Below the pieces are notes generated by a model. That model had not been told where the DNA came from. It saw only the letters and a list, made by a program, of their open reading frames with translations, and did not search any database. Source: Deltaproteobacteria bacterium (GTDB lineage Bacteria; Desulfobacterota; GWC2-55-46; DRQE01). From it: a stretch of DNA of 43,120 nucleotides. The DNA lies in the NCBI GenBank assembly GCA_015492245.1, contig WGFM01000035.1, positions 1 through 43,120 on the forward strand, read 5' to 3'. Positions 6,352 through 20,002 of the stretch are shown piece after piece. The translations under genes were made by a program, and so were the position numbers. The number at the start of each line of letters is the position of its first letter. Positions within the stretch are counted from its first letter, which is position 1.

Positions 6352-8324
<1,973 letters not shown>

Positions 8325-8340
8325 AACAATCACCTCGGGT

Positions 8341-10371
8341 CTACTGTATCTCTACAAACCCACTGGTATCATCCCCTATCGCCTTTTTAAGAGGTCTTTG
8401 CTGTGGTTGTGTGGTCTCGTTCCTTTCGTCTTCTTTGTATGGTTGCCTTATGGGTGTTATCCTTGCATCCGGCTCTTCAAGGTGTTCCTGGGCCAGAGGC
8501 TGTGCGGATTCGATACTCTCCATCAGTTGAAAGTTGCCCACAAGGTTTAAAAGCTGTCTGGCCTGTGCGGACATCTGTTCACTCGCTGCAGAGGATTCTT
8601 CCGCGAGGGTTGCGTTCTTCTGGGTTATCTCATCGAGCTGTGCTATTGCCTTGTTCACCTGCTCCACTCCACCTGCCTGTTCCTGAGAGGCCGCACTTAT
8701 CTCTGCGATAAGGTCTGTAACCTTCTTAACACTCACTATTATCTCTTCAAGTGTTGCCTGCGTGGTTTCTGCAAACTGTGCGCCCCCTTCTGTCTTTGAG
8801 AGATTCTCTTTTATAAGAGATGTAATCTCCTTTGCTGCCTGGGCACTGCGCTGGGCAAGGTTTCTCACCTCAACGGCCACCACCGCAAATCCCTTGCCCT
8901 GCTCCCCGGCCCTTGCTGCCTCCACTGCCGCATTGAGGGCCAGTAGATTGGTCTGGAATGCTATCTCCTCTATAACATTGATTATATCGGAAATCTTTTT
9001 ACTGCTGTGCTTTATCTCGTTGATAGCCTCCATCATCCTGCCCATTACATTTCCACCATCTTCGGCCTTGTTTCTGCATTCTGTAGCAAGTTTGTTCGCC
9101 TCTTTAGCGGTATCGGCATTCTGTTTGACCATACTTGCTATCTCTTCCATGGTTGAGGCGGTCTCTTCCACAGAGCTTGATTGCTCGGTTATCCTCTGTG
9201 AGAACTCTGTATTGCCTTTTGCAAGCTGGCTCGATGCAAGAGACAGCTGGCTTGCTCCGTCCCTTATCTGGCTTATCATCCTGTTGAGGTTCTCCCTCAT
9301 GGTATTAACGGTCTCTGCCAGCTGGCCGAGTTCATCCCTTGTCCTTACCTCAAGGGGCTCGCCCTTCAGATTGCCATCGGCAACACCTCGGGCTGTCTCT
9401 GCTATCTTCTTCACAGGTTTTATTATATTCCATGACAGATAATACCACCCTATGCCGAATACCACAAAAGTTATAACGAGGAAGACAATCTGCATGGTCC
9501 ATGACCTGTCTACCTTCGCCCTGCTTGCGTTCTCGTACATCTTTACAGCTGCGTTCATCTCTTTGAGAAGGGGCAGGTTGTTTGCCAGTATATAATCTAA
9601 ATATCCATTCGCCCTTTTTGTAACATCTACCAGCTTCTCTATATTGGCTTTAAAGGGCTTCCAGCTTCTCACTATATTATGTAGCTGGGCCAGTATCTCT
9701 CCATCCCTTATGGGCTCAAGCCCGAGTTCCCTGTCTCCGTTTATGAATCCATTAACAACCCTGTCGAAAAGCGTTACCGTAGAAAGTAGCTCCTTCGGGC
9801 TTGCCCCATTTGATGCAAGGGCGAGTGCCTCTTTGGTCATCTTCTGGCTCAGCATCCTCTGCCTGCCAGCCATGTTTATAACAGCAGGCTCCATGCCCCT
9901 TGATTCCATCATGCTGACCAGCCTGTTTGCCTCCTCGAGCAACGCTGTGTTGTTCGTAAGAAGATATTTGTAGATACCATTTCGCTCCTCGCTTGCTGTA
10001 ACAAGTTCCTGGAGATTCTTTCCGAACTCTTTCCACAGGCCCTGGACCTTGTTAAGCTGTGCAACTATGGCCGGTTCAGTTGTCGGGGGTATTCCCTGTT
10101 TCGGATCTCCGGATATCAGGGTTTCAAGACTCTCTTCAAACAGGTTGACCGTTGCAAGCACCGAGGCGCTGTCTATTCTGCCCTGCTCGAAGGCAAATAC
10201 CTCTTTGGTCATCTTCTGGCTCAGCATCCTCTGTCTGCCAGCTATGTTTATAAGCTGTGCATCGCTTTTACTGGAATTTATAGCCCAGAAGGTAGAGCCT
10301 ATGGTTGCAAGGATAAGCACTATAAAACCACCAAGTATCAAGCCGAGTTTGAATCTTATACTCCTTTTCAT
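8341..10371 (-). CDS. Methyl-accepting chemotaxis protein with tandem PilJ-type sensor
   Basis: This 676-residue receptor has a membrane anchor at about 8-30. The periplasmic region contains two copies of the PilJ/NarX-like helix motif ([16 protein letters not shown] at about 42-57 and [16 protein letters not shown] at about 166-181). A second membrane span follows at about 295-315, then HAMP, then a long signalling coiled coil with the conserved hairpin tip ([24 protein letters not shown]). PilJ-type domains are found in receptors for type IV pili and nitrate/nitrite sensing. The ligand here is unknown. The two sensor copies are nearly identical at DNA level over 54 bases, so they arose by internal duplication or were recently homogenised. 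A strong AAAGGAGG site precedes the ATG. The C-terminus (SGFVEIQ) lacks a CheR-binding pentapeptide. Confidence 0.94.
9828..9881. repeat. Internal direct repeat in the PilJ-type receptor gene, copy 1
   Basis: These 54 bases match 10200-10253 at 52 positions, 372 bases (124 codons) apart. They encode the second [14 protein letters not shown] helix. Both differences are C/T changes. Confidence 0.85.
10200..10253. repeat. Internal direct repeat in the PilJ-type receptor gene, copy 2
   Basis: Partner of 9828-9881 (52 of 54 bases identical). It encodes the membrane-proximal copy of the PilJ helix motif. The flanking sensor sequence has diverged far more than this block. Confidence 0.85.
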
Positions 10372-10448: not shown

Positions 10449-10982
10449 TTATAGCCTATACTCTTTGTGGTCTGTTTTCTCGCAGGTTGTGGTATCGTCA
10501 TGTGCCTCTTTGAGTTGCTTTAGCTCCTCGTCCGAAAGGAGCCTTTCTACATCGAGCAGTATCACAAGCCTCTCGCCTATCTTTCCCATCCCCTTGATGA
10601 ACTCGGTTCTTATTCTGGAACCAAACGATGGTGTGGGCTGGATATTGTCCTGTGAGATACTTATCACCTCTGAGACGGTATCCACAATAATGCCAAATAT
10701 CCTGTCGTCCACCTTCAAAATTATTATACATGTGCGGTCTGTATACTCTGCCATTGCAAGCTCGAATCGTGCCCTCAGGTCTATTACTGGCACAACTATA
10801 CCCCTGAGATTTATGACCCCCTTTATAAAGTCTGGAAGATGGGGAACCCTTGTTATGGAAGAAAGTCCTATTATCTCCTGCACCTTAAGAATCTCAATCC
10901 CGTATTCCTCATCGCCCAGACAGAATGTAACAAACTGGGTGCCATCCACTGTAACCGTAAAATCACACCCCTTATCTGCCAT
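10449..10982 (-). CDS. cheW: Chemotaxis coupling protein CheW
   Basis: CheW docks chemoreceptors to CheA in the signalling array. The 177-residue protein is a single CheW domain: FVTFCLGDEEYGIEILKVQEI opens the first beta-barrel and VPHLPDFIKGVINLRG is the most conserved block (NLRG loop). An extra C-terminal tail of about 25 polar residues follows the domain. The ATG has a clear AAGGAGG ribosome-binding site. It lies between cheA and the PilJ-type receptor, so scaffold, kinase and receptor are co-transcribed. Confidence 0.95.
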   Translation of the reverse strand: MADKGCDFTVTVDGTQFVTFCLGDEEYGIEILKVQEIIGLSSITRVPHLPDFIKGVINLRGIVVPVIDLRARFELAMAEYTDRTCIIILKVDDRIFGIIVDTVSEVISISQDNIQPTPSFGSRIRTEFIKGMGKIGERLVILLDVERLLSDEELKQLKEAHDDTTTCEKTDHKEYRL

Positions 10983-11010: not shown

Positions 11011-13041
11011 TCAACAACATATACTTCTTTTTATGATTCCCCCACCATCGATTATCAGGGCGACCTCTCCATCACCCAGTATTGTTGCACCTGCTATGCC
11101 TGTTATGCCCTGCAGACACCCCATACTCTTTATCACCACCTGCTGTTCCCCCAGGAGCTCATCCACGAGCAACCCGTAGTGCTTTCCATCTATAGATACA
11201 ATGACAACGAGTGCACACCAGGGCCTTTCCTCCAGGGGCTTTATGCCAAAGACCCTGTGAAGCCTTACAAGAGGCACGAACCTTCCCCTGAAGTCTATAA
11301 CCTCTCCCCTGTTCTCAACTGTCTTGAGTTCTTCTGGCAGAGGTCTTTTAGATTCAAGAACAGTTGTTATGGGTATGATGAATTTTTCGCTGCCCACCCT
11401 GACTATAAGTCCATCTATTATGGCGAGTGTAAGTGGCAGTCTGAGTGTAAACCTTGTGAAGGCCCCCTCACGGCTTTCGATAGAGACGGCACCCCCCATC
11501 GCCTCCATGTTTCTCTTTACCACATCCATCCCCACTCCCCTGCCAGAAACATCGGTAACCTTATCGGCAGTGGAAAAACCCGGGGCAAATATCAGCTCAT
11601 ATATCTCATCGTCTGGAATACTCTTTCCATCTTCAATGAGTCCTTTCTCCACAGCCTTATGCAGTATCTTCTTTCTATCTATACCCCTGCCATCATCCTC
11701 TACGGTTATTACCACCTTGCCTCCCTCGTGAAAGGCGTTTATACGCACAACCCCTTCCTCTGGTTTTCCACTATTTCTTCTCTCCTCAGGGGTTTCTATC
11801 CCGTGGTCTACAGCATTTCTCAGAAGATGGGTCAACGGGTCTGCAAGCCTCTCTATGACAGTTTTATCGAGCTCTGTGTCCTCTCCCGATATGAGGAGAC
11901 CTATCTTCTTCTCTCTTTGAGCCGCAAGGTCTCTTACAAGGCGTTTAAATCTGGTGAAGATGTTACCCACGGGTAGCATCCTTATGGACATAACCCGTTC
12001 CTGAATGGCCATTGTATTTCTCTTAAGCTGTGAGATAGATTTTTCCAGAAGCCCTGCCCTCTCACCGGTTAGACCTGAACTCAACTGGTTTATGATGGTC
12101 TGGGTTATGAGCAACTCTCCTACAAGGTTTACCAGTTGCTCTACCTTGTCTATATCCACCCGTATGGTTGAGGATTCTCTGCCATGGACATGGTGGGACT
12201 GCATTGCGGGTCTTACGGAAGGATGCTGTGTGCTGCCATGTCCTTTCTGGGAGACCCTCCTATCCCTTCTTGATGTTCCGTCATCAGCAGATTCAGAGGG
12301 TATCAGCCTGGTTATCTCCACATGGCTTCTGTCCTTCACGAACTCGAAGACACTCTCTACAACCTCTACGCTTTCCTTTGATACAAGGTGCATATCCCAC
12401 GATAGATAGCACAATTCCGGGTCGATCTCTTCGAGCTCCATGGGTCTGCTGAAATATGGTTTTATGCTTATAGGGTCTCCCAGTTCCCGGAGTTTTCTTA
12501 TGAGCCTTAAGGGGTCCATACCCCGTTTAAGTATCTCCTGGTCGGGCTTGAACACTACGCGCAACAGCCCTGTATCGGTGGGGTGTGATGGCCTGTTATT
12601 TTTATGGCAGGCCCCTTCTCTATGTACGGTGCTATCGGTTTCTGTATGGCCAGGCAGTGAGCTTACTTTTCTTAGCACATCCTTCATGTTGTCTGGAGCA
12701 GGTTGCCCCTTTTTGGCAGATTCAACAAGGTCCTTTATGCAGTCGACTGACTCCAGAAGTATGGAGGCAAGCTCGTCCGTAAAACTCATCTCACCGTTTC
12801 TGAGTCTGTCCAGGACAGTTTCCATCCTGTGGGTAAAGGAGTATATATCGTCGAAACCGAGACAACCGCTGTTACCTTTTATTGAGTGGACAGATCTGAA
12901 AAGGGCATTGAGGAGCTCTTTGTCATCGGGGTTTTCTTCGAGTTCCATTATGAAGCCCTCCATGCTGGAGATATGGTCCTCGCACTCTGCAAAGAAGCTC
13001 TCTTTTATCTTGGAAGTGTCGATGGTGAAACTGTCAGGCAT
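11011..13041 (-). CDS. cheA: Chemotaxis histidine kinase CheA
   Basis: The 676-residue kinase starts with an HPt domain whose phosphorylated His52 lies in LFRSVHSIKGNSG. A P2-like CheY/CheB docking domain follows at about 158-250. The dimerisation helices (IDKVEQLVNLVGELL, about 300-360) precede an ATP-binding domain with N box (LLRNAVDHGIE), G1 (DDGRGID) and G2 (GRGVGMDVV), and the protein ends in a CheW-like P5 domain. It autophosphorylates under receptor control and passes phosphate to CheY and CheB. The order and length are those of an ordinary class I CheA. The intergenic gap to cheY is only 38 bases. Confidence 0.96.
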   Translation of the reverse strand: MPDSFTIDTSKIKESFFAECEDHISSMEGFIMELEENPDDKELLNALFRSVHSIKGNSGCLGFDDIYSFTHRMETVLDRLRNGEMSFTDELASILLESVDCIKDLVESAKKGQPAPDNMKDVLRKVSSLPGHTETDSTVHREGACHKNNRPSHPTDTGLLRVVFKPDQEILKRGMDPLRLIRKLRELGDPISIKPYFSRPMELEEIDPELCYLSWDMHLVSKESVEVVESVFEFVKDRSHVEITRLIPSESADDGTSRRDRRVSQKGHGSTQHPSVRPAMQSHHVHGRESSTIRVDIDKVEQLVNLVGELLITQTIINQLSSGLTGERAGLLEKSISQLKRNTMAIQERVMSIRMLPVGNIFTRFKRLVRDLAAQREKKIGLLISGEDTELDKTVIERLADPLTHLLRNAVDHGIETPEERRNSGKPEEGVVRINAFHEGGKVVITVEDDGRGIDRKKILHKAVEKGLIEDGKSIPDDEIYELIFAPGFSTADKVTDVSGRGVGMDVVKRNMEAMGGAVSIESREGAFTRFTLRLPLTLAIIDGLIVRVGSEKFIIPITTVLESKRPLPEELKTVENRGEVIDFRGRFVPLVRLHRVFGIKPLEERPWCALVVIVSIDGKHYGLLVDELLGEQQVVIKSMGCLQGITGIAGATILGDGEVALIIDGGGIIKRSICC

Positions 13042-13079: not shown

Positions 13080-13448
13080 TTATGGCATAACCATGTCTAC
13101 AACCTTAAGCAATTGCTCTGGTGTAAAGGGCTTCACTATCCATCCTGTAGCACCGGCTGCCTGTCCCTCTCTTTTTTTCTCTTCCATGGACTCTGTGGTG
13201 AGCATCAGTATGGGGATGTACCTTTTACCCGTCAATCCCCTCACAGCCTTTATGAACGATATGCCATCCATCTCTGGCATATTAAGATCAGTAATAATCA
13301 TATCGGGGTTGAGCCCGTTCTTTAGTTTTTCAAGGGCCTCTTTACCATCACATGCTTCAACGACCGAATAGCCCCTGCTCTTCAGTGTAAACCCCACCAT
13401 CTGTCTCATAGTTTGGGCATCGTCTACAATGAGTATGGTCTTTGCCAT
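13080..13448 (-). CDS. cheY: Single-domain response regulator CheY
   Basis: This is a 122-residue stand-alone receiver. The acidic pair is at Asp9-Asp10, the phospho-acceptor is Asp54 (MIITDLNMP), Thr lies in LMLTTES at about 84, and Lys in WIVKPF at about 106. It has no output domain, so it acts by binding a partner, classically the flagellar switch. It lies directly upstream of cheA. Dephosphorylation would depend on an unusual phosphatase because no CheZ, CheC, CheX or FliY gene is in the operon; the next gene upstream carries a CheZ-like motif. Confidence 0.95.
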   Translation of the reverse strand: MAKTILIVDDAQTMRQMVGFTLKSRGYSVVEACDGKEALEKLKNGLNPDMIITDLNMPEMDGISFIKAVRGLTGKRYIPILMLTTESMEEKKREGQAAGATGWIVKPFTPEQLLKVVDMVMP

Positions 13449-13467: not shown

Positions 13468-14721
13468 TTAGAATAACACCACATTGTTTCCAACCCTGTC
13501 ATCCCCTGTTTCTCCTTCCTGTGGAGACAACTCTCTCTGTCCCCCATCGGCAACTATCTTGAGCGTTGCTCTCTCTTTCTCCATGGTGTATTGTTTTGCA
13601 AGGTTTTCCAGTCTCTTTTCTATGGTATTGATTTCCTTAAGGTTCTTTTTGTCGGCATTAAGGAGCATCTCCATTTCGCTCTTCATATCCTCAAGTGGTG
13701 TTATCACATGCTCTATCCTCTGTCGTGTTATGTCCTGAAACTGCAGGGATGTAATTATGGAGGATATGTCGGTGGCTATGAACCTGCTGCCTTCAAGGAG
13801 CATATCAACCGATCTTTCGAGCTCTTTGTGGATATGTCTTATATCGTCGAGCAGCTGTGTTATTCTTGTCTTCGTCCTTTCTGCCCCTTCTATATCCTTT
13901 GCTGCCATATCCTTTATCCTGTGCGATGCCTTTTGTATGTGTTCCTGTATCTTCTTTATCACATCCTTTATCATGGTGCTTGCCGAGGCTGATCTTGAAG
14001 AGAGTCTTCGTATCTCTTCTGCCACTACAGAGAATCCCCTTCCGGCCTCTCCTGCCCTTGCCGCCTCTATGGCTGCATTGAGTGCAAGAAGGTTTGTCTG
14101 GTCAGCGATGAACTCTATGTCCTCCATTGTCTCCGATATTCTGCGCACATTTTTTGCAAGGTCATCCATTTCATCAACTGCCTTCAAGAGAGACATTGAG
14201 GCATTGACCGCCTCTTCTGCCATCTCCTCCAAGCTGTTACCTGTAAGATTCAACACCCCTTCTATACTCAGCCCCTTGTCGCTGGTATTGTTTTTTGCCC
14301 TGATTGTATTTAGTGCAGTGTTTGTCTGGTCATCAGCCTTCCTTGCTATATCCTGAAATCTCGCACTGATATCAAGGGCTGCCTGTTCTGTGTACTCTAC
14401 TGCTTCTTTAAGCTGTTCGTTCAACACTGGTATGAGCTTGACGCATCCCTGCATAACAGAGTCAAACAGGGTGTTTTTCTCTTCCATCTTGAGCCGATGG
14501 TCTTCCTCTTCTCTCTCAATCCCCGCGATCCATTCTGTCAGGCTTCTTCTCATAAGAAGGTAAAGAGCAAGACTCGCCAGAAGCCAGAAACATATGGCAA
14601 CAACAATAGCGGCACTGCTTTGCACAAAGGGAAGCAAGACTGCCAGGGGAATGGCAAAAAGTATGCCTCCCAAGACGAAGGTCTTCAGCTGTGCCCTTTG
14701 AACATCGGCTCTGTTATCCAT
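13468..14721 (-). CDS. Sensorless methyl-accepting protein with CheZ-like FQD-x3-Q motif
   Basis: The 417-residue protein has two adjacent membrane spans (about 15-33 and 38-57) with almost no periplasmic loop and no HAMP domain. A cytoplasmic helical signalling domain follows, with a chemoreceptor tip at 207-230 ([22 protein letters not shown]). Near the C-terminus, 327-334 reads LQFQDITRQ. The D330-x3-Q334 spacing is the same as the catalytic Asp and Gln of CheZ (FQDLTGQ in E. coli). A related FQDIARK lies at 122-128. Without a sensor loop it may read membrane or cytoplasmic state, or serve as an array adaptor. Phosphatase activity is inference from the motif. It lies between the STAS gene and cheY. 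Confidence 0.85.
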
Positions 14722-14776: not shown

Positions 14777-15085
14777 TTATTCATATACATGTGTAAGCCC
14801 TAATGTTTCCGAAAGACCCGCATCATCCATTGCCCTGAGCACTTCATCGGATGGCTCGACAATAGACAGCCTTCTTCCCGCTTTTCTCATCCTGTAATCT
14901 GCCATAAGGAGTATCTGAACCACCGCAGTACCAATAGACTCCACCCCTCCCATATGGATTGCCGTAAGTTCATCCATGTTGTCCATCACATGTTTCAGCA
15001 AAACCGGAGCCTCCTCTATGGATAGTCTTCCCTCCATTACAAGCTGTATGCCACCATCTTCCTGTCTAATGGTTATCATACTCAT
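14777..15085 (-). CDS. STAS-domain protein
   Basis: This 102-residue protein is a single STAS domain (anti-sigma-factor antagonist fold) with the usual opening strand (GGIQLVMEGRLSIEEAPVLLKHV). The phosphorylation-site loop reads GGVESIGTAVVQIL, where the Ser before IGTA corresponds to the regulatory serine of SpoIIAA-like proteins. It is first in the chemosensory operon. STAS proteins in such clusters are thought to scaffold or to exchange phosphate with receptor or kinase complexes. The partner here is unknown, and no anti-sigma kinase gene is nearby. Start ATG 15085 or the second in-frame ATG two codons later. Confidence 0.88.
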   Translation of the reverse strand: MSMITIRQEDGGIQLVMEGRLSIEEAPVLLKHVMDNMDELTAIHMGGVESIGTAVVQILLMADYRMRKAGRRLSIVEPSDEVLRAMDDAGLSETLGLTHVYE

Positions 15086-16653: not shown

Positions 16654-16670
16654 GGCCATCCTCGATGGCC
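16654..16670 (+). other. 5' UTR hairpin before the PepSY gene
   Basis: GGCCATC CTC GATGGCC forms a perfect 7-bp stem with a 3-base loop, followed by an A-rich stretch and the AAAGGAGG ribosome-binding site at 16681. It has no U-tract, so it is not a terminator; it may stabilise the mRNA or tune initiation. A shorter palindrome GGGATGCATCCC lies just upstream (16630-16641). Confidence 0.45.
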
Positions 16671-16697
16671 AAAAAAACAAAAAGGAGGTACGGAAAG

Positions 16698-17165
16698 ATG
16701 GATAGAAAGACATTTCTTATGGCCACAATCATAACGGTGCTCACCCTGTCTGTAGTGCCAGCGTTTGCAGCAAAGAAGAGTGCCATAACTCTTGAAGAGG
16801 CGGTAAAGATAGCCAGAGAGCACGCACCAGGGGAACTGATAAAGGTCGAGCGCGAACGGGGGCTTTACGAGGTAAAGCTCCTAACGCAGGAGGGAAAGAG
16901 GGTAGAACTCTACATCGATGCCGAAACCGGAAAGGTTGTCCACGACAAGGCTAAAGGCATATCATTCGATGAAGCAGTTGCCACTGCCAAAAAGGCCACA
17001 CCTGGTGAGGTCATTAAGGCAGAGTATGAAAGGGGTAGATACGAGATAAAGATAAGGCAGGATGACGGAAGCCTTACAGAACTCTACATAGATGCATCGA
17101 CCGGCGAAATCACAAAGAGCGAGCAGACCAGGGACTACTACAATGACGATGAAGACGACGATTGA
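16698..17165 (+). CDS. Secreted protein with two PepSY domains
   Basis: The start at ATG 16698 has AAAGGAGG nine bases upstream and gives a signal peptide (MDRKTFLMATIITVLTLSVV, cleavage after AFA). An upstream in-frame ATG at 16665 has no such support. The mature part is two tandem PepSY repeats (about 30-80 and 88-140), each with A..A....PGE.(I/L)K.E.ERG.YE and ending ELYIDA.TG. The tail is acidic (NDDEDDD). PepSY domains are thought to bind or inhibit peptidases, or to sense in the cell envelope. Genes of this type often precede b-type cytochromes and two-component pairs, as here. It may be the extracytoplasmic sensor or ligand of the downstream kinase; that is inference. Confidence 0.88.
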   Translation: MDRKTFLMATIITVLTLSVVPAFAAKKSAITLEEAVKIAREHAPGELIKVERERGLYEVKLLTQEGKRVELYIDAETGKVVHDKAKGISFDEAVATAKKATPGEVIKAEYERGRYEIKIRQDDGSLTELYIDASTGEITKSEQTRDYYNDDEDDD

Positions 17166-17174
17166 TACACCAAC

Positions 17175-17211
17175 CCGCAGGGGCTTCGGGTCTCTTCCGA
17201 AGCCCCTGCGG
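17175..17211 (+). terminator. Strong hairpin between PepSY and cytochrome genes
   Basis: CCGCAGGGGCTTCGG and its exact complement CCGAAGCCCCTGCGG form a 15-bp perfect stem with a 7-base loop. It is followed by A6-C-T5 rather than an immediate T-run, so it is a poor intrinsic terminator. It more likely protects the upstream mRNA and lowers expression of the cytochrome and regulator genes relative to the abundant PepSY protein. Confidence 0.5.
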
Positions 17212-17242
17212 AAAAAACTTTTTCCAAGGGAGGGATGACAGG

Positions 17243-17935
17243 ATGAAACCTGAAAAATGGGACAACAAAGAGGAGCCTGTAGCCATAGAGGTGTGGGACT
17301 GGCAGACAAGGGTTCTTCACTGGCTCAATGCCATACTTGTAACAGGCCTTGTTGTGCTAATACTCGGTGCAGAGGCAGTCGAAGAGTTCGGCCTTGGTGA
17401 GGCCACAGAGGACTGGTTCAAATCGATACACGCACAGGTTGGAAGAATCTTTGTCCTGACCCTTACGCTTCGCATATTGTGGGGCTTTGTGGGCAACCGC
17501 TATGCCCGGTGGTCTGACATGCTCCCTTTCACAAGGGAAAAAGGCCGTGCCGTAGTGGAGAACATGAAGTGGTATCTTTCGGGATTTCGTGGCAGGGCAC
17601 CCGTTCATATAGGGCATAATCCCCTTGCCTCGCTATTCTACATGGCGCTGTTTGCGGTGCTTCTGGTGCAGGCACTCACTGGGCTTCTGCTTGCTGGCAT
17701 GGAGTTCAACATGTTTCCTGCAAGCCTCGTTACCTCTGGCCTTGGTGAGGAGGCCATGGAAGAGCTCGAAGAGGCCATAGAGGAAATACATGCGTTAGGC
17801 CTGTGGTTTGTGATATTCTTCTTCATGGCCCACCTGACAGGCCTCCTCACCCACCACCTTTTCGACAGGGGAGGGCTTCTGGGCTCCATGGTGCATGGTA
17901 AAAAATATTTCAAGAAGGGCGAATTGGGGCTATAA
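17243..17935 (+). CDS. Cytochrome b561-type integral membrane protein
   Basis: The 230-residue protein has four or more membrane spans. Conserved histidines lie in RVLHWLN (first span), SIHAQVGR and MAHLTGLLTHH, the pattern of prokaryotic b561 / Ni-hydrogenase-type cytochrome b subunits that carry two haems and shuttle electrons between quinol and a periplasmic partner. The ATG at 17243 follows a GGGAGGG site. A longer upstream reading from 17162 would pass through the hairpin and is rejected. A charged loop with several Glu residues (EEAMEELEEAIEEI) lies before the last span. It is co-oriented with PepSY and the two-component genes, suggesting a redox-related signal. Confidence 0.88.
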   Translation: MKPEKWDNKEEPVAIEVWDWQTRVLHWLNAILVTGLVVLILGAEAVEEFGLGEATEDWFKSIHAQVGRIFVLTLTLRILWGFVGNRYARWSDMLPFTREKGRAVVENMKWYLSGFRGRAPVHIGHNPLASLFYMALFAVLLVQALTGLLLAGMEFNMFPASLVTSGLGEEAMEELEEAIEEIHALGLWFVIFFFMAHLTGLLTHHLFDRGGLLGSMVHGKKYFKKGELGL

Positions 17936-17942
17936 TCTTGCC

Positions 17943-18620
17943 ATGCGCGTAATACTTGTAGAAGACGAAAGAGAACTTGCCCATAGCATAAAGAAGGGGC
18001 TCGAGGAAGGGGGCTACAGCGTGGATGTTGCCTACGATGGCGAGGAAGGTCTCTACATGGCAGAGAACTTCCCTGCAGACGTGATCGTGCTGGACATAAT
18101 GCTTCCCCACACAGATGGCCTTACCATACTCAAGACGATCCGCTCCAAGGGCATCAAGACCCCTGTGCTGCTTCTTACGGCAAGGGATGCACTCTCCGAG
18201 AAGATAAAGGGGCTCGATACAGGGGCTGATGATTACCTTACAAAGCCCTTCGAGTTTGCAGAGCTTGTTGCGCGCATACGCTCGCTCTTAAGGCGCACCG
18301 CAGAGGTGAAAGAGGCCATCATCCGCATAGATGACCTCGAGATAAACACCGCAAGCCACGGGGTAAGACGCGCAGGCCGGCCCATAAGGCTTTCGGCAAG
18401 GGAATACTCCATCCTTGAATACCTTGCCTACAGGAAAAATACCGTTGTAAGCCGCACCGAGATAACGGAACACATATACGATGAATCCTTCGACAGGGAC
18501 TCGAACATAGTGGATGTCTACATAAACTACCTTCGCAAGAAGATAGACCGTGGGTTTAAGAACAAACTGCTCCATACCGTAAGGGGTGCAGGCTACATCC
18601 TGAAGGAGCCGGAGAGATGA
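17943..18620 (+). CDS. OmpR/PhoB-family response regulator
   Basis: The 225-residue protein has a receiver with phospho-acceptor Asp51 (VIVLDIMLP), Thr in LLLTARD and Lys in YLTKPFEF. A winged-helix output domain follows with the usual RLSAREYSILEYLAYR and VDVYINYLRKKID. The chosen ATG (17943) lies seven bases after the cytochrome stop and gives the canonical MRVILVEDE start. The stop overlaps the kinase start (ATGA). It is the likely activator of the direct-repeat promoter at 16584-16615. Confidence 0.95.
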   Translation: MRVILVEDERELAHSIKKGLEEGGYSVDVAYDGEEGLYMAENFPADVIVLDIMLPHTDGLTILKTIRSKGIKTPVLLLTARDALSEKIKGLDTGADDYLTKPFEFAELVARIRSLLRRTAEVKEAIIRIDDLEINTASHGVRRAGRPIRLSAREYSILEYLAYRKNTVVSRTEITEHIYDESFDRDSNIVDVYINYLRKKIDRGFKNKLLHTVRGAGYILKEPER

Positions 18621-20002
18621 ACCTGCTTTTTTCCTCCATAAAGGGCAGGCTTCTTGCTCTCTTTCTTTCGGCGTTCTTCGTTGTCCTTACAGGGCTGGGA
18701 TTTTTTCTCTACAACAAGCTGGAGGGGATTGTCATAGGCTCGATAGACAATCATCTGCACTCCGAGGTGCAGCTCATTGCAGGTCTCCTTGAGACCGAAG
18801 AAGAGGGCCCTGAGCTTGAGCTTTCAGAGGCTGCCATCGGCGATTATGCCACCCCCCTTTCAGGCCATTACTATCAGGTGGTCCTGCCTGATGGAAGGGT
18901 GCTTGCCCGCTCTCCCTCTCTCTCCATACCAGGCAAGAGACTACCCCATGTCAGGGGGATACTCCTTGAACCCGTCTATACAACGGCAACAGGGCCCCGT
19001 GGTGAACCACTGAGGCTTCTTGCCCAGTCCTTCAGACTTCCTGACGGCGAGGTGGTAACCATCGAGGCAGCGGAAAGCCTGGAGGAGGCATACGAACTCT
19101 TAAGACTTTTCAGGAACACCCTGCTTGTGGTCTTTCCCGCGGTATTCATAATATCCGGGCTTGGTGTGCTTTTCATAATCGTCTGGTCTTTAAGGCCACT
19201 TGAACGGTTCTCAAAGAAGATCGGCACCATTACAGAGCGTAACCTCAACGAGAGGATAGAGGAGACCAGGGGGTCTGAACTGAGCTCCCTTGCAAAGAGC
19301 TTCAACACCATGCTCTCGCGCCTTGAAGAGTCCTTCGAGCGGCAGAAACGCTTCTTCACAGACGCCTCCCACGAGCTCAGAACCCCAACGGCTGTAATAA
19401 AGAGCGTGTGCGATGTAACCCTTTCAAGGAAGAGAACCGCCGAAGAATACGAGGAGGCACTTGAAAAGATAAAACAGGCTACAGAAAGGCTTTCAGGGCT
19501 TATAGGCCGCCTGCTCGAGGTCTCAAGGCTTGAGGGAAAACTATCTTCCCTCAAGCTTGAGGAGGTAGACCTAAAAGACCTTACAGAGGATGTGGTAAGG
19601 CTCCTTGATCCCGCCGCTGCAAGTAGCAATATAGCCATAGGGCTTAAGGGTGATGGGGTCAAGGTCCATGGCGACAGGGAGCGGCTTACCGAGGCCATAA
19701 AGAACATCGTCGATAATGCAATAAAGTACAACCGTCCTGGCGGAAGGGTGGATATAGAACTTGAAAAGAAGGATGGCTGGGCAATGATAATCCTAAGGGA
19801 TACTGGCATGGGTATACCGCAGGACAAATTGTGTCGTATCTTCGAGCGCTTCTACCGTGTGGAAGAAAGCCGCAAAATCGGTGGAACAGGGCTTGGCCTT
19901 TCCATAGCAAAGAGCATAATAGATGCCCACAGGGGAAGAATAGAGGTTGAAAGTGAGCCCGGTGTGGGCACAACCTTCAGGGTGGTGCTGCCGAAAAGAT
20001 AG
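18617..20002 (+). CDS. Sensor histidine kinase
   Basis: The 461-residue kinase has membrane spans at about 11-32 and 168-191, enclosing an extracytoplasmic domain of about 135 residues. HAMP follows at about 192-245, then HisKA with His252 (FTDASHELRTP) and HATPase_c with N box (NIVDNAIKYN), G1 (RDTGMGIP), F box (ERFYRVE) and G2 (GTGLGLSIA). It is translationally coupled to the regulator by an ATGA overlap. The sensor region has no recognised domain. With PepSY and cytochrome genes in the same unit, an envelope or redox stimulus is plausible. Confidence 0.95.
   Translation: MNLLFSSIKGRLLALFLSAFFVVLTGLGFFLYNKLEGIVIGSIDNHLHSEVQLIAGLLETEEEGPELELSEAAIGDYATPLSGHYYQVVLPDGRVLARSPSLSIPGKRLPHVRGILLEPVYTTATGPRGEPLRLLAQSFRLPDGEVVTIEAAESLEEAYELLRLFRNTLLVVFPAVFIISGLGVLFIIVWSLRPLERFSKKIGTITERNLNERIEETRGSELSSLAKSFNTMLSRLEESFERQKRFFTDASHELRTPTAVIKSVCDVTLSRKRTAEEYEEALEKIKQATERLSGLIGRLLEVSRLEGKLSSLKLEEVDLKDLTEDVVRLLDPAAASSNIAIGLKGDGVKVHGDRERLTEAIKNIVDNAIKYNRPGGRVDIELEKKDGWAMIILRDTGMGIPQDKLCRIFERFYRVEESRKIGGTGLGLSIAKSIIDAHRGRIEVESEPGVGTTFRVVLPKR

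Follow-up and report, generated by a model that had tools for sequence, protein, structure and literature searches.

Which protein removes the phosphate from CheY in a chemosensory operon that encodes no recognised CheY phosphatase, and could a receptor-like protein encoded beside cheY do so itself? The phosphate of Escherichia coli CheY lasts long enough to need CheZ. Some chemosensory systems are without a recognised CheY phosphatase, and a 2008 survey, which detected no CheZ in Geobacter, concluded that these bacteria must use a mechanism independent of CheZ (PMC2577667). We analysed one such operon in a 43,120-nucleotide contig of a Deltaproteobacteria bacterium (hereafter the window; WGFM01000035.1). 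Our comparisons suggest that the receptor-like protein is probably a chemoreceptor–phosphatase hybrid, that is, a CheY-P phosphatase embedded in a receptor, and that its family could supply the activity that such systems seem to lack.

The operon runs in the order STAS, hybrid receptor, cheY, cheA, cheW, methyl-accepting chemotaxis protein (MCP), cheR and cheB (Table 1). The preliminary description gave the receptor gene the correct coordinates, 13468–14721, and needs correcting as to strand, since the frame runs on the minus strand (14721–13468). It had named cheY as the very next gene, which Pfam (Response_reg) confirms at a distance of 19 bases downstream, and had seen no CheZ, CheC, CheX or FliY in the operon, with which the gene list and Pfam agree and which holds genome-wide as well. 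The signalling domain scored 113.6 bits against PF00015 (cut-off 34.6). Hydrophobic stretches at about residues 12–34 and 36–57, with almost no loop between them, and a Pfam listing of 16 families (E up to 10) that held neither HAMP nor a sensor domain both bear out the earlier view of two membrane spans without a periplasmic domain or HAMP; Pfam gave no match to CheC or CheX domains in this protein either. An AlphaFold2 monomer of modest confidence (pLDDT 69.2, pTM 0.32) consisted of long helices, 3–29 and 36–145 among them. Two fold searches aligned it with solved chemoreceptor hairpins, chemoreceptors ranking first, and CheZ was absent from the best 50 matches listed in each of these searches with a one-chain, modest-confidence model. 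The protein thus resembles MCPs (PF00015) in its full signalling domain with tip and in its hairpin model, and differs from usual MCPs in lacking a periplasmic domain and HAMP and in the apparent CheZ-like bundle of its membrane-proximal stalk; HAMP and a sensor domain are usual in MCPs, not universal.

Table 1 Features of the hybrid receptor gene and its operon (positions in the window; residue counts from the wider alignment unless stated).
Feature	Position	Strand	Basis
Hybrid receptor gene, 417 aa	13468..14721	(-)	ORF list and Pfam
Two membrane spans, residues about 12–57, barely any loop	14551..14688	(-)	Sequence; model helices
N arm, residues 97–120, resembles first CheZ helix (P98, L104, T111, A114, A115, I118)	14362..14433	(-)	Profile scans with controls and HHalign
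FQDIARK, residues 122–128, second FQD, D124 variable	14338..14358	(-)	D124 16/108
MCP signalling domain, residues 168–321	13759..14220	(-)	Pfam PF00015, E 1.1e-32
C arm, residues 318–345, resembles catalytic CheZ helix	13687..13770	(-)	Profile scans, PDB search, HHalign
F328-Q-D330-I-T-R-Q334, DxxxQ pair	13720..13740	(-)	D/Q on D143/Q147 of E. coli CheZ; 30/30 family members
Y378-T-M-E-K-E-R384, conserved after the bundle	13570..13590	(-)	Y378 110/111, M380 110/111, R384 108/111
C-terminal N-V-V-L-F, unlike the CheZ tail, in part of the family	13471..13485	(-)	F417 69/111, gap 41/111
STAS-domain gene, upstream	14777..15085	(-)	Pfam
cheY, presumed substrate	13080..13448	(-)	Pfam Response_reg
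cheA	11011..13041	(-)	Pfam
cheW	10449..10982	(-)	Pfam
Ordinary MCP, PilJ-type N-terminal domains and HAMP	8341..10371	(-)	Pfam; two PilJ-type matches
cheR	7458..8333	(-)	Pfam
cheB	6352..7461	(-)	Pfam

We then assembled the family. Searching 59 sampled genomes with the whole protein returned ten genomes with a close relative, the window's own included, and a more distant group; taking a single protein from each genome in order of rank, we aligned 30 family members. Scanning named genomes with the single window protein gave no match; a C-domain profile scan gave 296 relatives of 520 matches to the pattern QFQDI[VTL]RQ, the letters of which are conserved there by selection, and 80 were kept. The wider alignment (n = 111) comprises the 30 proteins, 71 of the 80 (six on contigs equal in length to ones already included, and three no longer than 300 aa, were left out) and 10 motif-bearing ORFs.

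The preliminary description had rested on LQFQDITRQ, in which D330 and Q334 have the spacing of the CheZ catalytic residues; F328-Q329-D330-I331-T332-R333-Q334 reads as described, and its D330 and Q334 align with D143 and Q147 of E. coli CheZ. Q327, F328, Q329, D330 and Q334 are kept in 30/30 family members, which the whole-protein search had fetched blind to the motif. D330 and Q334 are also invariant in the wider alignment (111/111), where 81 of the 111 sequences were picked for having the motif (71 from the scan whose pattern contains it, and the 10 further ORFs). V339, outside the motif, and Q329, immediately before D330, likewise reach 111/111, and T111 reaches 107/108. The similar FQD that had been noted at 122–128 does exist, and its conservation (I125 108/108, F122 81/108, Q123 38/108, D124 16/108) fits a structural helix motif; a second active site at F122–D124 was rejected on the low counts for D124 and Q123.

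Might the DxxxQ motif, too, be structural, marking the coiled coil of a receptor subfamily and involving no phosphate chemistry? Receptor and CheZ are both helical hairpins, and the distance from the first residue of the tip pattern to that of the motif is 116 residues in every one of the 71 members, out of 80, that have a recognised tip pattern. Helical-wheel calculation, as distinct from a structure, however, places D330 and Q334 on the polar helix face as in E. coli CheZ (97–178 degrees from the hydrophobic face, varying with stretch and pitch, compared with 129–173 degrees for D143/Q147), where packing needs no invariance. Furthermore, F-x-D-x-x-x-Q is absent from 14 ordinary MCPs of the same loci, which also gave no CheZ match. 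We therefore consider a purely structural motif highly unlikely.

Likeness to CheZ extended beyond the motif. The Pfam CheZ model PF04344 matched residues 253–371 of the hybrid receptor with an E value of 9e-4 and 19.6 bits, below the cut-off of 30.7, and the NCBIfam CheZ model gave an E value of 1.3e-4 and 21.6 bits (cut-off 350). Among the family members, 17/30 matched the Pfam model at E up to 0.01, the best at 3.8e-7. Searching 177,635 PDB sequences with the C-domain profile ranked E. coli CheZ second (E 0.049) in an ungapped alignment with D/Q on D143/Q147, positions obtained by counting along that alignment, and the same profile reached soluble CheZ proteins of other genomes at E values down to 2.9e-8. 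The N-arm profile alone found no CheZ in the PDB. The other arm of the receptor hairpin, P98–I118, matches the remaining CheZ helix: P49, L55, V58, T62, A65 and A66 of E. coli CheZ correspond to P98, L104, A107, T111, A114 and A115 of the window protein, and residue 107, A in the latter, is V in 91/108 of the family alignment.

Ungapped profile scans (24 columns) compared three family sets with 30 CheZ of the same class. The two best windows fell on the C arm (322–345, first set) and the N arm (97–120), in the order of CheZ, and neither window was seen for the 14 ordinary MCPs in the same scans. The family sets are not wholly independent, because six loci of the named set also belong to the first. 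A second CheZ set consisted of 23 soluble proteins fetched by the C-domain profile, whereby likeness to the C arm was selected and likeness to the N arm was not; at least 3 of the 23 (L178, L193, L205) look nearly alike, and one (L199) is without a Pfam match. Against this set the N arm scored 27.2, 21.4 and 29.3, higher than the maxima of 40 column shuffles (20.4, 17.3 and 15.0). An N-arm regular expression proved too strict, matching 3/30 CheZ, 8/10, 19/20 and 25/80 family sequences, and 1/18 ordinary MCPs.

HHalign against CheZ gave 96–99% for the N and C arms joined (ordinary-receptor control 2–4%) and 89–98% for the C arm alone (control 0.4–10%), the C-arm likeness being 9–13% with the motif masked. 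The first N-arm comparison, with a control at 78%, was confused by MCP-like N-terminal extensions of three CheZ (L032–L034), and was redone with trimmed CheZ and with the second CheZ set. The N arm alone reached 52–85% against the second set (control 1.4%), and 11–76% against the class CheZ set (control 36%), the latter not clearly above control. These results strongly suggest that the helices of a CheZ-type bundle lie on either side of the MCP signalling hairpin, with homology to both CheZ helices in order and register. Long-helix profiles often match by chance, as the control N arm at 36% illustrates, yet conservation over many phyla and the agreement of two separate helices in one register make a fortuitous likeness to CheZ extremely improbable, and refute it as far as sequence can. 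A chance motif was likewise rejected, on the 30/30 conservation and on the profile scans and HHalign comparisons with their controls. The three CheZ with extensions (L032, L033, L034) are 410–444 aa long, and the extensions resemble HAMP-type sequence of ordinary MCPs.

Compared with CheZ (PF04344; E. coli CheZ, PDB 1kmi), the hybrid shares both active-site hairpin helices, their order and register, a DxxxQ pair predicted on the polar face, and a gene by cheY. Unlike CheZ, it has an MCP signalling hairpin for the hairpin turn, membrane spans and, just ahead of the catalytic Q, R333 instead of the G of most CheZ. Comparison of the tails revealed that VDxLLxxLG, the CheY-binding helix of CheZ, is absent from the window protein, which ends in NVVLF; in its stead the family shows Y-x-M-E-x-x-R and, in part, a C-terminal N-V-x-L-F. 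We did not file the protein as CheZ because it falls short of two defining features, the Pfam cut-off and the CheY-binding tail; its signalling domain makes it an MCP, and if it is a working phosphatase it would presumably work like CheZ. Alternative C-termini, CEIWDxPS and PEPEIW, replace NVxLF in L086, L091, L094, L141, L157 and others.

These differences bear on whether the CheZ-derived bundle binds CheY-P and hardly hydrolyses it, either docking CheY at the array or giving CheY-P a feedback route to the receptor. Docking and hydrolysis are equally compatible with the homology and gene order, and R333 and the missing tail set the family apart from most CheZ. Invariance of exactly the two catalytic residues is, however, more than docking needs, and the objection from R333 is weakened because soluble CheZ that exceed the Pfam cut-off (L201 and L203) carry R before the catalytic Q together with the usual tail. 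We accordingly regard docking without appreciable hydrolysis as unlikely. Three soluble CheZ (L201, L203, L204) read YQDxARQ, with R rather than G before the catalytic Q and the usual C-terminal tail.

Gene order points to CheY as the substrate of the putative phosphatase. The next recognised gene is cheY in 87/90 loci; two of the exceptions (L084 and L141) end there, and one (L120) has cheA next. The sampled genomes already contain six of the 80 named loci; counting these once, cheY is next in 81/84. Another response regulator, CheB-P or an upstream LuxR-type regulator, might instead be dephosphorylated, as genes for CheB and a LuxR-type regulator lie close by; LuxR-type matches on the same strand occur in 18/88 loci counted, far fewer than have cheY next, and we judge this alternative to be most improbable. 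Among 74 CheYs (the window's and 73 from the 80 loci), D, T and K of the active site are kept in 74/74, D+2 is N in 72/74 and T+2 is E in 74/74, N and E at these positions being the pair of E. coli CheY. Positions D+2 and T+2 have been described as influencing dephosphorylation (PMC8510515). The STAS gene was found, among the 90 family loci, only within the same genus (L074 and L079, one contig). Short MCPs of 374–395 aa without the DxxxQ motif lie further down the same operons in L070, L072 and L075. Elsewhere in the window, positions 16665–20002 carry a run of genes named by eye: one for a small exported protein containing two similar repeats, then one for a cytochrome b561-like protein, then a regulator/kinase pair.

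We searched for other CheY phosphatases across the window genome (1.88 Mb, 35 contigs, rated 100% complete). The sole PF04344 match was the hybrid receptor itself (E 1.6e-4, below the cut-off), and PF04509 (CheC), which also covers FliY, and CheX each gave 0 matches; no other recognisable CheY phosphatase is thus encoded there. The genome has FliM/FliN and a second che system with a second cheA on contig C21 (L068, 13715–15841), where cheR, cheY, cheA, cheB, motA and motB were named by eye and only CheY was Pfam-scanned. This flagellar che locus has no cheZ, and its cheY–cheA gap is 42 bases. In relatives such as G002, G003, G007, G055 and G058, a CheZ match lies just upstream of a cheA match in the same contig and orientation, and a loss of the flagellar-locus cheZ in the window's lineage is therefore likely.

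CheZ above the cut-off occurs in 41/59 sampled genomes, and a close relative of the window protein in 10/59, the window genome included. Simple replacement of CheZ was rejected, since 7 of these 10 genomes also carry a separate above-cut-off CheZ; it is missing from the window genome, from its sole sampled congener (G001, rated 92% complete) and from G021 (81%). None of the ten has CheX or CheC.

The earlier proposal that the receptor itself dephosphorylates CheY stands in part. It gains from the homology to both CheZ helices, the conserved D/Q pair with its polar-face placement and the fixed position by cheY; against it are the sub-cut-off Pfam score, the absent C-terminal CheY-binding helix, R333, the low masked C-arm value, the weakness of the N arm alone, the separate CheZ in 7/10 genomes and the modest-confidence model. 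Should the receptor act as a phosphatase, the two membrane spans would pass straight into the coiled-coil stalk, the membrane-proximal part of which would be the CheZ-type bundle, and the MCP signalling hairpin, of a kind that binds CheW and CheA in other MCPs, would connect the two CheZ helices where CheZ itself has a hairpin turn. Because MCPs, like CheZ, form dimers, a receptor dimer would complete the CheZ four-helix bundle near the membrane. In that predicted three-dimensional geometry, D330 and Q334 would face outwards, activate water and hydrolyse the phospho-CheY encoded by the next gene. With the receptor as a presumptive array member, the signal would be terminated at the array, its site of production by CheA, through hydrolysis of CheY-P on that receptor or on neighbouring ones. 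Signal termination would then occur inside the receptor itself, the CheZ fold would be linked with the receptor fold, and a single protein may contribute both to switching the signal on and to switching it off. Because the CheA-controlling tip and the candidate phosphatase site share one coiled coil, stalk shifts might also switch kinase activation and CheY-P hydrolysis oppositely, with input from the membrane only and no ligand sensor. We offer this as a tentative and rather doubtful extension; if true, the receptor would govern both push–pull arms, like a bifunctional histidine kinase.

DxxxQ is an established catalytic motif of CheZ and HisKA_3 kinases (PMC3510030, PMC7750401). Similarly to HisKA_3 histidine kinases such as NarX (PMC3510030), the hybrid carries DxxxQ on the helix bundle of a membrane protein; unlike them, it has neither a phosphorylatable H before D (Q329 instead) nor an ATPase domain. 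CheC/CheX fusions to CheA have already been published in leptospires (PMC10542144), and likewise place a CheY phosphatase module inside a core array protein, although theirs belongs to another phosphatase family and is joined to the kinase, not the receptor. We found no report of CheZ inside a receptor in the open-licence literature, and passages of PMC9321776 and PMC5596200 make no mention of one; a report elsewhere is possible.

The 80 added loci lie on contigs labelled Nitrospira, Thermodesulfovibrio, Geobacter, Deltaproteobacteria, Spirochaetes, Deferribacteres, Chitinispirillaceae and others, and a plasmid search gave one weak match. Two-span anchoring is not universal, because many Nitrospira members had one membrane span or none in a simple hydropathy test. 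In a second subfamily (L012–L031), many members carry a three-cysteine pattern (C-x6..9-C-x3-C) following the DxxxQ helix, which might form a metal or redox site. Four proteins of about 600–700 aa (L180, 1079–3100; L181, 750–2540; L182, 1238–3331; L183, 714–2540) represent a second hybrid architecture, in which two partly degenerate, MCP-like hairpins enclose F[QH]DITRQ and the sequence has the same ending, Y-x-M-x-x-x-R ... G-D-N-[VI]-[ED]-[LF]-F, as the family; Pfam MCPsignal matches were obtained on L181 and L182.
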